DNA of 64,000 nt from Cytophagaceae bacterium ABcell3 (GTDB taxonomy: Bacteria; Bacteroidota; Bacteroidia; Cytophagales; Cytophagaceae): assembly GCA_030913385.1 (NCBI GenBank), contig CP133159.1:1696584-1760583 (forward strand). Reading direction: 5' to 3'. Positions 48,224 to 54,282 of this stretch are shown here, one piece after another; the first letter of the stretch is position 1; every line of letters starts with the position of its first letter. The translations under genes were made by a program, and so were the position numbers. The notes under the pieces are model-generated. The model made no database searches. It was not told where the DNA came from and saw only the letters and a program-made list of their open reading frames with translations.

Positions 48224-49084
48224 ATGTTGCGTATAATTAACCTGGTTGCTGTTTTTCTGTTTTTCGTTCAATTGCCAACTTTTGCATTTTTCGACTCTAC
48301 TGGAATAGAGAAGCGTGGCGGACGGGTATATATTATACATAAAGTTGAACCTAAGGAAACTTTATTTGCTCTTTCTAGAAGGTACAATGTATCTGTAGAT
48401 GAAATTAAAAAAGAAAATCCTGAGGTGGCTTCTGGGCTACAGATAGGTCAATTGGTCAGCATACCTGCGGGAACGTATAAAGAAACCCCACCACCGTCAA
48501 AGGCTAAATCCAAAACACATGAAGTAAAGCCTAAAGAAACTTTATATGCCATTTCAAGAAAATATGGGGTTTCTGTAGATGATATTAAAAAGGCAAATCC
48601 AGGTGTGGAGGTAACCGATCTGAAAATCGGACAGGTTATTAACGTGCCTGCAAAAACAGCCAGTGCTGCTAATAAGAAAGAAGACAAGCCAGAACCGACT
48701 AAAACAGCAGCAGCTAGTGAGCCTGAAAAGGACGAACCTAGCGTTGCTATAAAACCAGCGGTAAAAGAACCTGAAAAACCAATAGAGTACCATGTGCCTG
48801 GCTGGAAACCTGGTGAGAAAATTTCTGAAACAGGTGTTGCTGAGTTGATCGAAGACAATTCTGATACAAACAAGTATCTTGCACTGCATAAATATGCTCC
48901 TGTTGGAACTATTGTGCAGGTAACCAATGAATCTAATGGCACAACTATTTTTGTAAGGGTTATCGGTGCATTGCCTGACACAGGAGCCAATGATAAAACA
49001 GTGCTGAAAATTTCCAAAAAAGCATTTCAAAAACTAGCCCCAACAGATAAGCGCGCACGGGTGAAAATTTCTTTTATCCCTTAG
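48224..49084 (+). CDS. LysM and RlpA-like (DPBB) cell-wall protein
   Basis: 286 residues: signal peptide (LVAVFLFFVQLPTFA), LysM 1 at about 32-77 and LysM 2 at about 92-138 (both HxVxPKETLxAxSRxY...), a Lys/Pro/Ala linker (about 140-190), and a C-terminal double-psi-beta-barrel (about 200-286) with SETGVAELIEDNSDTNKYLA and TIFVRVIGALPDTG. It probably binds peptidoglycan in the periplasm. RlpA lytic activity needs an Asp/His pair that I could not place, so enzymatic function is uncertain. Confidence 0.82.
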   Translation: MLRIINLVAVFLFFVQLPTFAFFDSTGIEKRGGRVYIIHKVEPKETLFALSRRYNVSVDEIKKENPEVASGLQIGQLVSIPAGTYKETPPPSKAKSKTHEVKPKETLYAISRKYGVSVDDIKKANPGVEVTDLKIGQVINVPAKTASAANKKEDKPEPTKTAAASEPEKDEPSVAIKPAVKEPEKPIEYHVPGWKPGEKISETGVAELIEDNSDTNKYLALHKYAPVGTIVQVTNESNGTTIFVRVIGALPDTGANDKTVLKISKKAFQKLAPTDKRARVKISFIP

Positions 49085-49221
49085 TTTCTAGCAATTGTAT
49101 TTGAAGATAGAGTAACAGTTTTAGGTTCTTGATAAACTCTTGAAATATAAGTTTAAAAACAGATGTTTCTTTTAATTTTACCATTTATTATTCCCATTGG
49201 GAGTTGAATTGAAAATAAACA

Positions 49222-50724
49222 ATGGCAAAAAAGAAAGAAGATAAAGCCTTCAACGCAAGAAAATATATGGAGATGGCTATTCAGGTAATGAATAAGTCCA
49301 TTCAAGAGCCGAGACAGGATAAAGTTAGTCCAAAGGTAGGTGCAGTTTTAATTAAGCCCAATGGCATAGAAGAAACAGCGTTTAGAGGAGAACTTCGTCA
49401 CGGTGACCACGCAGAATTTACGTTACTTGAGAGAAAGAATCGCAGCAATCATTTAGATGGCTCTTTACTATTTGCCACATTGGAACCTTGTGCTCTTGGA
49501 GCGAGGAAACATCCTAAGTTAGGTTGTGCTGAACGAATTGTAAATGCTCGTATTAAAAAAGTTTGGATTGGCATAGAAGGTCCAGACCCAACTGTTGACC
49601 GCAAAGGGATCAAGTACCTTTTGGATAATGGGGTGGAAGTAGAAATGTTTGATGCCGATCTTCAAAAGCAAATTCGAGATGCCAATAAACAATTTATTGA
49701 AGAAGCAGAGGAAAGAGCTAAGGTGGCAAATGATGAAAAGTTGCCCATTGTATTGTCTGAAAAGGAAAGAACCGAGCCAAAAGCCGAACTGGAAGATTTG
49801 TCAAGAACTCATTTAGATGCTTTTATCAAACAAGCAAAGCTGAATGTAGAATGGGATACGCCTAAGTTTTTTAGGGTACTCGCACAATTGGGTATTTTAG
49901 AATCGAAAGATGAGACTTTTGCTCCTACAGGCTTGGGCTTGCTTTTGTTTGGGGAACGTCCGCAACTGATTTACCAAAATGCTTTGATAAGAGCTACTTA
50001 CAAAACCAAAGGTAGAGGAGAAGACATTGACAACATTGAAGGGCCACTTATTTCGCAAGCTGATAAAATTCAACAATGGTATGAAAACCATATTGGTAAA
50101 CAGATTGACCGTTCATCTGCCGTACGAAAAGTTACTTATGATTACCCATTAGTAGTTTTCCGAGAAGCTATCATTAATGCAATCGTGCATAGAGATTATG
50201 ATATTGATGGTGCTCCTATTTATTTTGAAATTAATGATGATGCGATAATTATTAAAAGCCCAGGTGAACCTGCTAAACTAATTACATTGGAACAAATCAA
50301 GCGGTTCAATGCTCCTTCGTTAAGTCGAAACCCTAAAATAATGTATGTGTTTGACCAGTTGGACTTAGTGGAGCAAAGGGGCTTAGGCTTCCAAACCATT
50401 AAAGACTTACCCACAAAGCATAATTTACCTTTGCCTTTAGTAACTTATGAAGCTCCGTATATGGTGATGACATTTCCAAGGAGCATTGAAGCTACTAAAA
50501 AAGTCACTGATAATCCAAACGTAATAAAACTTAAAGATGCTCAATTAAAAGGTTACGAATGGCTTAAAAGTGTTCGAGAAACAAGCACAAGGGAATATTC
50601 AGTTCATTTTGGCATTGGGTATAAAACTGCTCAGAGACATCTTGCCGCTATGAAAGAACTTGGTTTAATACGTGATAATGGAGAAGATGTTAATTCTCCT
50701 AATTACAAATATGTTGTGAAATGA
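49222..50724 (+). CDS. RibD-like deaminase fused to a GHKL-type ATPase and winged helix
   Basis: 500 residues in three parts. Residues 12-145 form a cytidine-deaminase fold close to the RibD/dCMP group: zinc ligands in HAEF (63-66) and PC(89-90)-x11-C102, then WIGIEGPDPTVDRKGI. A linker (146-200) and a winged-helix-like stretch (RVLAQLGILESKDETF) follow. Residues about 300-420 form a HATPase_c_4-type module of the COG2865/AlbA-associated group (REAIINAIVHRDY 314-326, DQLDLVEQRGLGFQTI). A second winged helix ends the protein (FGIGYKTAQRHLAAMKELG). There is no AlbA_2 domain, which normally sits where the deaminase is. The combined role is unknown. Confidence 0.8.
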   Translation: MAKKKEDKAFNARKYMEMAIQVMNKSIQEPRQDKVSPKVGAVLIKPNGIEETAFRGELRHGDHAEFTLLERKNRSNHLDGSLLFATLEPCALGARKHPKLGCAERIVNARIKKVWIGIEGPDPTVDRKGIKYLLDNGVEVEMFDADLQKQIRDANKQFIEEAEERAKVANDEKLPIVLSEKERTEPKAELEDLSRTHLDAFIKQAKLNVEWDTPKFFRVLAQLGILESKDETFAPTGLGLLLFGERPQLIYQNALIRATYKTKGRGEDIDNIEGPLISQADKIQQWYENHIGKQIDRSSAVRKVTYDYPLVVFREAIINAIVHRDYDIDGAPIYFEINDDAIIIKSPGEPAKLITLEQIKRFNAPSLSRNPKIMYVFDQLDLVEQRGLGFQTIKDLPTKHNLPLPLVTYEAPYMVMTFPRSIEATKKVTDNPNVIKLKDAQLKGYEWLKSVRETSTREYSVHFGIGYKTAQRHLAAMKELGLIRDNGEDVNSPNYKYVVK

Positions 50725-51019
50725 ATAAGTTTACAGCTTGGACAAGAAGTTGAATATATTGTCCGAGCTACAGGGTGAAAAGATCCCATTTACAATGAAC
50801 TTGGACAAAAAGTTGGACATAGAGTCCAAGTTAACACATGTGCTTCGGTTTGTAAGTTAAAACGGTTCTCTTTATCTTGCTTTGTGCTTGTGGGGTTGAG
50901 TGCTGATTTAAAACGCTCCGTACCACATATGCCAAGTGTTCTGTATGGCTCTATAAGGCCTGCCGTGAGGCTTAAAGAACATTTTGGTCAAAATTTTTTG
51001 GTTTAATTTAGTTAGAATT

Positions 51020-51065
51020 AAGCTCCGGTATCAGATTTTTTGTGTGTCTGATGTCGGAGCTTTGT
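51020..51065 (+). terminator. Hairpin terminator
   Basis: Arms AAGCTCCGGTATCAGA and TCTGATGTCGGAGCTT pair with a 2-bp internal bulge around an 11-base T/G-rich loop and are followed by TTTG. It lies about 300 bp after the deaminase stop. Confidence 0.75.
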
Positions 51066-51071
51066 TTACCT

Positions 51072-51130
51072 TGGATTATGCATAGATTTTGCCACGCAAA
51101 AGGAGGTTCTAATGCATATTAAGGTTTAAA
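51072..51130 (+). repeat. Dispersed palindromic repeat, copy C
   Basis: GGATTATGCATAGATTTTGC at the left and GTTCTAATGCATATTAAGG at the right match copy B; arms of ATGCAT-type bases face each other across about 26 bases. It ends 10 bp before the ATG of the next gene. Confidence 0.7.
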
Positions 51131-51140
51131 GTACAGGTAT

Positions 51141-51887
51141 ATGAAAAAGCTTTTCGTGCCTCTGCGTGAAAAAATTGATAAGAAGTTAATTACATTTACA
51201 GATACTCCTTTAATCATTTATTGTGCAGTCATTCTCGGTTTGAGCGCTACATTTATAATCAGACGCTATAATGAGGACCTGGCATTAAATCTTTTTTCCG
51301 AATTGCTCGGTGGAGCCTTTACTTTGTTTATTATCAATGTTCTTCTTGTAAAGAACAAAAACAAACGGTGGCTAGTGGTTCAAGACCATGTTGATTACCT
51401 GATTGCTCGACATGTGAACCGGTTAAGGGATGGCTTGGCCACAAGGGTGTTTTCTTTTCGCCCACATGTAAAAACAGAACTTTCTGAAGATGTTATTTTA
51501 GCTGAAATACGGAACCAGCGAGACGCGCTGTTTTATCAGCTTGTTAACACTGAAGATATTTCGTCAAGAATCAGTAAGGATCTATTTAGCGAAGATAATT
51601 ATGACTACTTCAATGAAAAGGCTGATGATATTTGGAACTTATTGAACATGAAGTATTCAGAATATTTGAATCCACAGTTGGTATCCTTGCTTATAGAGTT
51701 GCATACCCAGCTCAAGGATATATGTGCACACATCCGGTTGTATAAAAAAGCAGATTTGTTTGTAGATGAAAAAGCATACTACCAAGCCTCTGGAATGAAG
51801 GGTGCTGCTGCCCACTTAAAAGAAGTTATAGTTATTGTTAATAGACTTAAACAAGAAGGTTATTCAGAGCCTGCCCGGAAAATTTAG
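51141..51887 (+). CDS. Two-TM protein with a helical cytoplasmic domain
   Basis: 248 residues. A basic start, TM1 about 25-42 (PLIIYCAVILGLSATFII), TM2 about 52-70 (LLGGAFTLFIINVLLV), then about 175 residues of helical, charged domain (YLIARHVNRLRDGLATRVF; LVSLLIELHTQLKDICAHIR). No catalytic motif and no family is recognised. Topology suggests a membrane-anchored cytoplasmic sensor or scaffold. It follows the dispersed repeat by 10 bp and precedes the NYN gene by 156 bp. Confidence 0.65.
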   Translation: MKKLFVPLREKIDKKLITFTDTPLIIYCAVILGLSATFIIRRYNEDLALNLFSELLGGAFTLFIINVLLVKNKNKRWLVVQDHVDYLIARHVNRLRDGLATRVFSFRPHVKTELSEDVILAEIRNQRDALFYQLVNTEDISSRISKDLFSEDNYDYFNEKADDIWNLLNMKYSEYLNPQLVSLLIELHTQLKDICAHIRLYKKADLFVDEKAYYQASGMKGAAAHLKEVIVIVNRLKQEGYSEPARKI

Positions 51888-52043
51888 GTATAATAAGAAG
51901 TTTGGAGAAAGCCTGAAATTGAGTAGTTTTTGTCTATGCTGTGACGTGCCTGGATATTGTAATTAAAACTTTCTTAGCGGAATTGGGTATTTGATATGCA
52001 TTGTCGAAGAAAACATTTGGGCTGGAAGTAGACAGTAATATAT

Positions 52044-52793
52044 ATGGAAACAGATTTGAAACTCGCAGTCTTGATAGACGGGGATAATATACCTTCTGCG
52101 TATGTGAAGGAAATGATGGAGGAAATAGCCAAATATGGCAACCCTACAATTAAAAGAATATATGGCGACTGGACAAAGCCTAGCCTTATAAAATGGAAAA
52201 ATGTATTGCTGGAAAATGCCATTATACCTATGCAGCAGTATGGATATACGGCAGGCAAAAATTCCACAGACTCTGCCATGATCATTGATGCCATGGATAT
52301 TTTATATTCAGGTAAGGTAAATGGATTTTGTCTGGTTTCGAGCGACAGCGACTTTACCCGATTGGCTACCCGGTTACGTGAGGCAGGTATGCGGGTGTTC
52401 GGGATAGGAGAAAGAAAAACACCAGAGCCCTTTATTGTTGCTTGTGACCGGTTTATCTATATAGAGGTGTTGAAAAGTCAGTCTAAGGATCTTGACCCTC
52501 AGGTGCCTGGAGGTAAGCCTCCCAAAAAGAATGAGGCCGAAAAGATTACTCCTAAGGTTGTTAGGTTAATTTCTTCTACTATATCTGATTTGGCAGATGA
52601 TGATGGTTGGGCTTTTTTAGGAGATGTGGGGAATCTGCTTCAGAAAAAACAACCTAATTTTGACTCCCGGAATTACGGTTTTGAAAAGCTGACACCTCTA
52701 ATCAGATCTATAGATAAATTTGAGATTGAACAACGTGAAAATTACAAAGGCAAGTTTAAATTAATTTATGTGAGAAATAAGGAAAAAAGCTAG
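52044..52793 (+). CDS. NYN-domain ribonuclease-like protein with LOTUS/OST-HTH domain
   Basis: 249 residues. The PIN-like NYN domain (about 5-150) has the acidic set VLIDGDNIPS (D12, D14), NSTDSAMIIDAMDIL and SSDSDFTRLATRLREAG. After a Lys/Pro linker (150-180), residues 180-248 (LISSTISDLADDDGWAFLG; FDSRNYGFEKLTPLIRSIDKF) match the OST-HTH/LOTUS RNA-binding fold. Such proteins are likely RNases acting on structured or foreign RNA. It is a single gene with its own 156-bp upstream gap. Confidence 0.88.
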   Translation: METDLKLAVLIDGDNIPSAYVKEMMEEIAKYGNPTIKRIYGDWTKPSLIKWKNVLLENAIIPMQQYGYTAGKNSTDSAMIIDAMDILYSGKVNGFCLVSSDSDFTRLATRLREAGMRVFGIGERKTPEPFIVACDRFIYIEVLKSQSKDLDPQVPGGKPPKKNEAEKITPKVVRLISSTISDLADDDGWAFLGDVGNLLQKKQPNFDSRNYGFEKLTPLIRSIDKFEIEQRENYKGKFKLIYVRNKEKS

Positions 52794-52994
52794 GTTAGTT
52801 AACTTTATTCTGGCTTGCATGTATGGTTAACAAATGTTTCTCCTGCTCAGAGTAGGTAGCTATTTTTTTATTGATAAACGCCTATCCGGGGGCATTCTTT
52901 ATCTCTATAGGTGACATAAGAGTTTTCGCATGTTTTTTGAGTTCAGTTGCCGAATTTGTCAGGTTTTTTCTAATTTTGATAAAATCCTTAAAAT

Positions 52995-53732
52995 ATGCTG
53001 TCTTACTTTAAAAAACACCTTTTGTCGCCCGACTCTGATTTAGACAAAAGCTTGTCTGTCGTTGTTTTATGTGCAGGGAAATCTTCACGTTTCAAGCAAC
53101 ATTACCCTAAGCACTTGGCTACAATTCAAGGTATTCCCTCTATCGTAAGGGTTATTAAGCAGTTAAAGAGAAACAATGTTCATGATATTTCAATGACAGT
53201 ATCTGAGGATAATCAAAAGTACTTTAAAAACATTAAGGTCAATAAGATTTTAGGTTCTGATAAAAGAGAAATTGACCGCTTTAGGAATGCTTTTGATTTT
53301 ATCAATAATAAAGAAAAGGTGTTGTTCTTGTATGGCGATGTTGTGTATCATGATTCTGACATTCAAACTATTTTAAATTCTGCCAAAGAAACTGGCAATA
53401 AATTTTTTGGCAGATATGGCAAGAACACTTTAACGCATAAACCATACGGAGAGCTTTTCGGCATTTTGATCAATGACAAGGAAAAGTTTTTCAATACTGT
53501 AAATAAGGTTGTGGACCTTTATGATAAAAAATTAATTAAAAGGGAGATAGGTTGGGAAGTTTATCGGGTATCGGAGGGGTTAGACCCGCTTGTGCATAAA
53601 ATTAAAGATAACTTTATAGAACTTTCTCAATTGACAGATGACTATGATACATTTGAGCAGTATAAGATTATCTGTAAATTACATCATTCTGCTACTTTTC
53701 AAGAAAAATCCCATGAACCAATAGCGGGCTAA
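52995..53732 (+). CDS. Nucleotidyltransferase (NTP-transferase fold)
   Basis: 245 residues. SVVVLCAGKSSRFKQHYPKH carries the G-x-x-x-R...K phosphate-binding signature, VLFLYGDVVYHD provides the metal Asp, and the C-terminal part (HKIKDNFIELSQLTDDYDTF) resembles MobA-like or IspD-like transferases. The substrate could be a sugar phosphate or a cofactor. It is a single gene, and the closest homologue type is not settled. Confidence 0.72.
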   Translation: MLSYFKKHLLSPDSDLDKSLSVVVLCAGKSSRFKQHYPKHLATIQGIPSIVRVIKQLKRNNVHDISMTVSEDNQKYFKNIKVNKILGSDKREIDRFRNAFDFINNKEKVLFLYGDVVYHDSDIQTILNSAKETGNKFFGRYGKNTLTHKPYGELFGILINDKEKFFNTVNKVVDLYDKKLIKREIGWEVYRVSEGLDPLVHKIKDNFIELSQLTDDYDTFEQYKIICKLHHSATFQEKSHEPIAG

Positions 53733-53772
53733 ATATAACTGCTGCAAATGTTGATATGTGCCGTTTTTAAAC

Positions 53773-53816
53773 CTGGATTATGCAATAGAAAGTTTTAATA
53801 CATATTTCAGGTTAAA
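53773..53816 (+). repeat. Dispersed palindromic repeat, copy D (short form)
   Basis: GGATTATGCAATAGAAAGTTT then TAATACATATTTCAGG: it matches copy B but lacks 17 bases between two GCA trinucleotides, as if deleted by recombination between those short repeats. It overlaps the 3' end of the DUF1360-like gene on the other strand. Confidence 0.65.
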
Positions 53817-54120
53817 GTTTATCATAAATCTTGTTGAAAATCAGGACAACGGTGTTAATGCCGGACGAAATAAAAACAGTGAAAATTAGCCTTTCTACAG
53901 TTAATATTTCAAATTCTGGAAGTCCTGTAATATGGGCCAAAAAGTAAATAAGTGCGCCCCACCAAGGTGTCATGCAGATAGGGCATTCGTAAACTGGTTT
54001 TTTTATATAAGAGGGCAGTGTCCTAAGTTTTAGGATAATGGGGTGGAATATCATGCCTCTCCAAGTGGTGGCCTTGATGAAATAGACAATAAACGCAATA
54101 GCAAAAGCTTGTTCAAGCAT
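53812..54120 (-). CDS. DUF1360-like small membrane protein
   Basis: 102 residues with TM segments at about 4-16 and 53-66 and 78-96, and a metal-like YECPICMTPWWGALIYF motif at about 45-60, conserved in DUF1360 proteins often linked to phage or spore contexts. The function is unknown. It is a single gene whose stop overlaps the dispersed repeat copy D. Confidence 0.7.
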   Translation of the reverse strand: MLEQAFAIAFIVYFIKATTWRGMIFHPIILKLRTLPSYIKKPVYECPICMTPWWGALIYFLAHITGLPEFEILTVERLIFTVFISSGINTVVLIFNKIYDKL

Positions 54121-54282
54121 ATTTTTGTTTCTTAGGCCTTTTTTTGTTTTTACCTTTATAATAGTACCTGTTAATGGGACATCATGTTATAAGTTTGATT
54201 TTAGATTAAGTCATTGTGCCGGTGTAAATTGAAGTGTTTTTCTTTTGCTCTGGCCATTAGACTTGTTCGTACTGCGTTATAA

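Follow-up and report, generated by a model that had tools for sequence, protein, structure and literature searches.

In the accessible part of one account, fusions of Schlafen RNases with a ‘minimal histidine kinase’ and a winged helix-turn-helix (wHTH) are described as anti-phage modules, and the Schlafen-HATPase-wHTH proteins as BREX-associated (PMC12839542). Zinc deaminases, AvcD and other dC deaminases among them, also serve phage defence. The deaminase toxin AvcD acts there with its RNA antitoxin AvcI, and the accessible part of that account mentions neither a HATPase nor a winged helix for AvcD, which is compared here by description only (PMC10511110). In the window, a stretch of 64,000 nucleotides from the genome of Cytophagaceae bacterium ABcell3, the open reading frame at 49222-50724 (plus strand) encodes a 500-residue protein that combines a RibD-like zinc deaminase with a COG2865-type module. 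The literature that we searched describes neither a deaminase-HATPase-wHTH fusion nor a cognate 3´ array.

The frame starts with ATG and is separated by 137 bp from the upstream ORF and by 416 bp from the downstream one. Pfam and an AlphaFold2 model (mean pLDDT 89, pTM 0.85) delimit the deaminase (residues 12-168, 49255-49725), a middle domain (about 190-305, 49789-50136) that it has in common with Schlafen-type COG2865 proteins in alignment, a GHKL-like HATPase_c_4 domain (about 306-420, 50137-50481), and a C-terminal winged helix (about 437-500, 50530-50721), all on the plus strand. The succession of HATPase_c_4 and C-terminal winged helix identifies the COG2865-type chassis. Both Pfam matches lie above the gathering score, that of PF00383 covering residues 13-117 (E 3.6e-11) and that of PF13749 residues 330-417 (E 7.7e-15), and PF04326 (SLFN_AlbA_2) has no match in residues 1-170, where Pfam gives the deaminase. 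In structure comparisons of the model, residues 11-165 matched RibD (2b3z) with Z 21.3 and an rmsd of 2.0 over 142 residues. Residues 88-500 matched 3lmm, a COG2865-like protein from Corynebacterium diphtheriae, with Z 21.5 over 299 residues; the rmsd of 9.6 indicates a multi-domain match in which the domains are placed differently.

The motifs H63-x-E65, P89-C90 and C102 lie within this fold, as the H-x-E and P-C-x(n)-C motifs of zinc-dependent CDA-fold deaminases do, and all five residues are invariant in a family alignment of 59 rows. By domain-wise identities, no other domain is as well conserved as the deaminase across distant family members. In the HATPase_c_4 region, E315 and N319 are likewise invariant in the 59 rows and G389 is conserved; H323-R324-D325-Y326 and G348 are further notable residues. 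The G1 box of GHKL proteins normally contains an aspartate. As the G1 position of this domain reads S-P-G instead, binding of ATP is not certain. One family member of 630 residues (L033) carries an insert of about 130 residues ahead of the middle-domain motif. PADLOC models for SIR2-PNTD and pAgo matched residues 138-348 of the window protein; a family search on this lead found 1 of 198 genomes at E 1e-30, matching only over model positions 13-282.

The sequence-only reading had proposed a zinc deaminase (HAE 63-65, PC 89-90, C102) in the position of AlbA_2 and a C-terminal winged helix, all of which hold by Pfam, by the fold matches, and by chassis proteins that do have an SLFN_AlbA_2 N-terminus. 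Its GHKL-like range, 314-395, is shifted against the Pfam match but includes the N-box-like helix from 310, and what it called a nucleic-acid-binding module in AlbA_2 is better termed a Schlafen RNase domain, following the accessible part of the Schlafen account (PMC12839542). It was silent on the repeat array at 50738-50829 and on the exchange of winged helices described below.

The Schlafen (AlbA_2)-HATPase-wHTH proteins of COG2865 have the same order of middle domain, HATPase_c_4 and winged helix and are homologous to the window protein over the C-terminal two thirds, whereas the N-terminus of the latter is a RibD-like deaminase instead of SLFN_AlbA_2. Other N-termini were found in hand-picked proteins from 18 fetched chassis loci with long frames: SLFN_AlbA_2 plus HATPase_c_4 in two of the loci and in one earlier protein, and DUF4062 plus HATPase_c_4 in six of six proteins tested. 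The DUF4062 proteins have the same chassis, with C-terminal helix families that differ (Fic-like_C, HTH_24). Given these chassis proteins, the deaminase family is most readily understood as a version of this chassis that carries a different effector. It is also a separate clade, as a tree of the HATPase region divides its 69 rows from those of 24 Schlafen and 6 DUF4062 proteins by a branch with support 100/99; incomplete members (L060, L067, L099, L101, L105, L108) were left out of this tree and of the alignments.

The deaminase-HATPase-wHTH protein is a member of a widespread family and no one-off chimera. At E 1e-20, matches were found in 18 of 395 genomes of the class, of which 12, including the genome studied here, contain the whole fusion and six match in the C-terminal part only; the other whole-fusion relatives that were aligned are 36-74% identical to the window protein. 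At least 302 relatives were confirmed in a collection of 84,980 species. Eighty loci were sampled from these, and 77 gave a called ORF, those without one (L059, L063, L090) being left out throughout; the near-duplicates L045, L050 and L073 were dropped from most counts but kept in the 7-mer repeat count of 76 genes. The labels of 69 sampled members cover 16 phylum-level groups, with one archaeal genus (Methanolobus), although many of the members are metagenome-assembled genomes and some labels may be mis-binned. With at least 302 relatives the fusion is not rare, and the literature searched holds no description of it. The phage collection, the plasmid collection and the viral contigs searched contained no full-length relative, and a plasmid DNA search gave no match. 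In the viral contigs, a single-sequence query found nothing, and an alignment query found two loci that match the deaminase part only. What looked like a long match in the record of a Staphylococcus phage proved to be an ordinary deaminase gene beside riboflavin genes.

Behind the stop codon of most sampled family genes stands a repeat array. Its unit contains three half-sites of 8 bp: NNNNGACA is followed at 12 bp by a direct copy and, after a gap of 3 bp, by an inverted one, and the whole unit is usually repeated 61-63 bp later (in 28 of 40 cases). The window gene and its relatives with the same winged helix have two units of the form TTGGACA-N5-TTGGACA-N3-TGTCCAA. Unit 1 of the window (50738-50766, plus strand) is partly degenerate, with half-sites at 50738-50744 and 50750-50756 and an inverted one at 50760-50766, and has intact counterparts in L034, L035 and L039; unit 2 (50801-50829, plus strand), with half-sites at 50801-50807 and 50813-50819 and an inverted one at 50823-50829, starts 63 bp after unit 1. 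Another type of array, TCGCGACA, is found in L036. In the 46 arrays of strict geometry, position 5 of the half-site is always G, position 6 is A in 38, position 7 is C in 43 and position 8 is A in 43, while positions 1-4 vary. Among eight members with the same motif, half-sites are 97% conserved and flanking positions 72%.

This strict geometry was present within 130 nt behind 46 of 72 family genes and missing behind the other 26. Among other genes in these loci, counted from 200 aa upwards, it was present in 2 of 544 cases, one of which (L082) is a unit upstream of a family gene. A held-out set of 13 further family genes gave 7 strict arrays, and repeats with other spacing were seen by eye in the remaining 6. 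A search for the 8-bp site scored at least 20 of 24 in 55 of 73 loci, whereas none of 40 shuffles did (best 18). Independently of geometry, 53 of 76 genes had a 7-mer that occurs at least four times, both strands taken together, within 300 bp downstream, against 3 of 76 upstream and 5 of 66 at +1.5 kb. In L107, by a reversal of the usual placement, seven copies of GTCGGGA lie within 300 bp upstream of the gene. Read in frame, the sequence after the stop codon is ‘GQEVG’-like and had suggested the decayed tail of a protein, but a DNA array is the better explanation of the conserved geometry and the locus-specific motif.

Short repeats are not confined to the deaminase family. Among 28 genes of Schlafen relatives, two of them with poorly called ORFs (L135, L139), 18 have short direct repeats, either after the stop codon or in the linker that precedes the winged helix; such repeats are present in 1 of 28 control windows and in 2 of 28 shuffles. 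They were first recognised by eye, and some of them read as 4-residue repeats (SEKT, TTGK, SSVK). The array of the deaminase family differs from them in its two direct half-sites plus one inverted half-site and in its duplicated units. A second chassis relative with a 248-aa open frame, counted among these 18 genes, lies in the same genome as the window (L002, G000:C1:779633-783280), and directly after its stop codon are three copies of ATTGCGTCA, a motif unlike that of the window gene.

Comparison of close relatives domain by domain revealed that the winged helix has a history of its own. The window protein and that of L036 are 87% identical in the deaminase, 83% in the middle domain and 94% in the HATPase, but 30% in the winged helix; L054 and L055 likewise agree at 89, 84 and 84% and differ in the winged helix (25%). 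Conversely, the window protein and that of L051 are 62, 30 and 54% identical in these three domains and 89% in the winged helix. Judged by these identities, family members exchange their winged helices as modules.

As far as sequence comparison can tell, the half-site sequence of the array follows the winged helix and not the rest of the protein. Across 67 loci, the correlation of motif similarity with the identity of the winged helix was 0.49 (partial r 0.48 with the body taken into account, a value that none of 2000 permutations reached), whereas its correlation with body identity given the winged helix was -0.11. Motif k-mers were common to 89% of 19 pairs with similar winged helices (at least 60%) and dissimilar bodies (below 55%), but to 11% of 141 pairs with similar bodies (at least 65%) and dissimilar winged helices (below 50%), close to the 13% of 1416 unrelated pairs; the pairs in all these comparisons are not independent of one another. 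The mean z of association with the motif was 3.9 for columns of the deaminase, 9.4 for the HATPase, 14.0 for the recognition helix and 18.1 for the wing, some association being present in body, helix and wing columns alike because of shared ancestry. As the winged helix and the array are physically adjacent, linkage alone could explain part of their co-exchange, but the half-sites are better conserved than the positions around them.

Several loci retain what look like earlier arrays. In L036 and L037, which belong to the clade of the window gene but differ from it in the winged helix, a TTGGACA unit persists behind the new array. The CATAGACA unit of L054 is likewise retained in its sister L055, and L094 and L097 differ in their near units and have a distal TCCCGACA unit in common. 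In L094, L097 and L113, two to three different half-site sequences stand in series before the downstream restriction gene, as if several former addresses had been kept. Overall, the winged helix very probably recognises the array. HsdS of the Type I restriction systems likewise exchanges its recognition domain among otherwise similar proteins; however, the two are not homologous, and in the deaminase family the candidate cognate site adjoins the gene and changes with the domain.

Gene maps show family members in two settings, as orphan genes, to which the window gene belongs, and as genes inside restriction loci. DNA similarity of the window to L034 and L039 spans 49134-50831 through the gene, at 84-87% identity, and the upstream segment kept in these closest relatives (49134-49221, plus strand) is probably the promoter or leader of the cassette. 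The cassette lies in a variable block of 5.2 kb (49085-54282) between a LysM gene and a DUF2400 gene, together with a 248-aa gene, a gene for an NYN plus OST-HTH/LOTUS protein (52044-52793), an NTP-transferase-like gene and a 102-aa ORF. In three of seven fetched family or order relatives (L183, L184, L189) the block is absent, DUF2400 following about 70-370 bp after the LysM gene and the block genes being unmatched there; L186 has a different insert of several kb, and in the remaining three DUF2400 is not visible in the fetched stretch.

Type I restriction R/M/S-like clusters are no more than 3.5 kb away in 18 of 74 loci; without L068 and L080, where there is nothing but fragments shorter than 200 aa, the number is 16 of 74. 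Eight of nine checked Type I restriction proteins had the expected Pfam domains, and the neighbour cluster labelled HsdS is a mixed one, two of its checked members being HsdM and one lacking a Pfam hit. In L098 and L111, the family gene has a cluster-1 (S-like) gene on one side and an R gene on the other. PADLOC recognised five of ten hand-picked neighbours, as Drt2 (in L039, an 88% relative), pAgo (L041), Type IIG (L089), PDC-S14 and PDC-S32. Overall, 434 PADLOC models were matched by 129 nearest-neighbour proteins and 66 by 125 proteins of the same loci more than 6 kb away, eight near-neighbour proteins (L087, L111-L113) having been left out for size; since the models are redundant, these figures are a contrast and no count of proteins. 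Pfam, run on the near genes, found among others HSDR_N (6), N6_Mtase (4), Phage_integrase (4), SLFN_AlbA_2 (3) and GmrSD_N (2). A gene for 134-170 aa recurs next downstream in L051, L053, L089 and L099; both of the products tested match DprA-like DNA_processg_A weakly, and it is a possible partner.

The association with defence genes is therefore present at the level of the family and absent at the window locus, where the two neighbours considered, the 248-aa and NYN proteins, gave no PADLOC hit. This qualifies what had been guessed from the sequence. A role in defence is supported by the family’s neighbourhoods but not by recognised neighbours in the window, and ‘alone’, as the gene was called on account of its 137-bp and 416-bp gaps, is true of this locus and not of the family. 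The search for the fused architecture and the scoring of its neighbourhoods, which the same reading had proposed, led to a widespread family that is often found amid defence genes.

We propose that the protein is a single-gene antiviral effector, bound to the array through its winged helix, which deaminates a nucleotide when triggered; for the chain as a whole we would put the probability at about 0.58, its substrate, trigger and array role being those that we infer. The winged helix would bind the 3´ array as double-stranded DNA, and the bound protein would be held dormant, or its expression limited. Phage infection would disturb the bound state, upon which the ATP-binding module would switch conformation and the deaminase would convert an essential metabolite, either a nucleotide or a compound of pyrimidine type; phage growth would cease, and the cell would pay for it (an abortive outcome). 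Exchange of the winged helix plus array would give members of the family separate addresses. By analogy, the relationship to RibD points to small pyrimidine-type substrates rather than nucleic acids, and the changed spacing between the zinc cysteines would argue against the riboflavin precursor itself.

The protein could instead be a transcription regulator that senses a nucleotide or other metabolite, with the deaminase fold as ligand sensor and the array as an operator controlling the following gene (e.g., hsdR) or the protein’s own transcript. The array does lie between the family gene and a downstream restriction-subunit gene in L094, L097, L098, L111 and L113. In 43 loci a strict array is accompanied by a next ORF of 120 aa or more, and in 33 of these that ORF is co-directional. 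In the other 10, however, it is convergent, and there the array cannot be its promoter operator. The complete catalytic set is invariant, which speaks against a regulator, and the placement of the repeats downstream rather than upstream, by the counts given above, also speaks against operators. Moreover, the 5.1-Mb genome contains the exact double site a single time, and with one mismatch allowed there are 6 sites against 12 for a reversed control pattern, so that no regulon is visible. We regard regulation as unlikely. A toxin restrained by RNA, in which transcribed hairpins of the array inhibit the protein as AvcI does AvcD, is less plausible still. There is a described precedent for a deaminase toxin with an RNA antitoxin in phage defence, in the accessible part of the AvcD account (PMC10511110), and inverted half-sites could form RNA hairpins, but the mismatches within the dyads (15 G·T, 12 A·C and 37 others beside 672 paired cells) show no excess of wobble pairs, and the spacing of 61-63 bp is close to six turns of DNA and so fits the binding of a duplex, both being indirect points; in addition, winged helices at the C-terminus typically bind DNA. 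In 48900-51300, no known RNA family reached the gathering score, and there were two weak hits.

That the array is an ordinary terminator, the scar of an insertion site or a recombination site, not bound by the protein, would agree with its position at the end of a conserved cassette and with the fossil units, which suggest repeated recombination there. We nevertheless consider it very improbable, as such units are rare behind other genes of the same loci (the 2 of 544 above), half-sites are more conserved than their flanks, and the association with the motif rises from deaminase to HATPase to recognition helix to wing, a trend confounded by shared ancestry. The slightest chance is given to an enzyme of the riboflavin pathway, or a recent RibD duplicate with a regulatory tail. 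Among solved structures RibD comes closest, in sequence as in fold, with the H-A-E and T-L-E-P-C motifs in common. However, the RibD family TIGR00326 (NCBIfam), at E 2e-14, scores 53.5 of the 156.35 bits of its curated cut-off, RibD_C is absent from the window protein by Pfam, and the genome has a separate RibD with a reductase domain (L003; PF01872 and PF00383); the window protein is therefore not RibD. It also differs in a longer insert between the zinc cysteines, the C90-C102 spacing being unlike that of RibD in alignments, and in a distinctive R55-G56-E57-x-R59 segment, and its recurrent neighbour families are restriction and defence genes, with no riboflavin genes recognised among them.

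The array-bound antiviral deaminase that we favour may be one case of something broader. More tentatively, and with the odds somewhat against it, HATPase-wHTH proteins with interchangeable effectors could form a self-addressed defence class, in which a deaminase, a Schlafen RNase or DUF4062 would each be tethered to a private array beside its own gene, whose geometry is kept and whose sequence can change. Specificity would evolve as winged helix and array moved together, leaving old addresses behind as fossils, and loss of the tether, e.g., when a phage degrades or remodels the host DNA, would release and activate the effector.

If these proposals are correct, the deaminase would join the effectors of a chassis that has so far been described with Schlafen RNases. 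A candidate cognate DNA site would be readable from the sequence beside each gene, providing a handle on how the chassis is controlled, and the 46 strict protein-site pairs would constitute a natural catalogue of winged-helix specificities from which rules of recognition may be learned. Repeat tracts in and behind COG2865 genes would then be explained as binding sites and not as peptide oddities.
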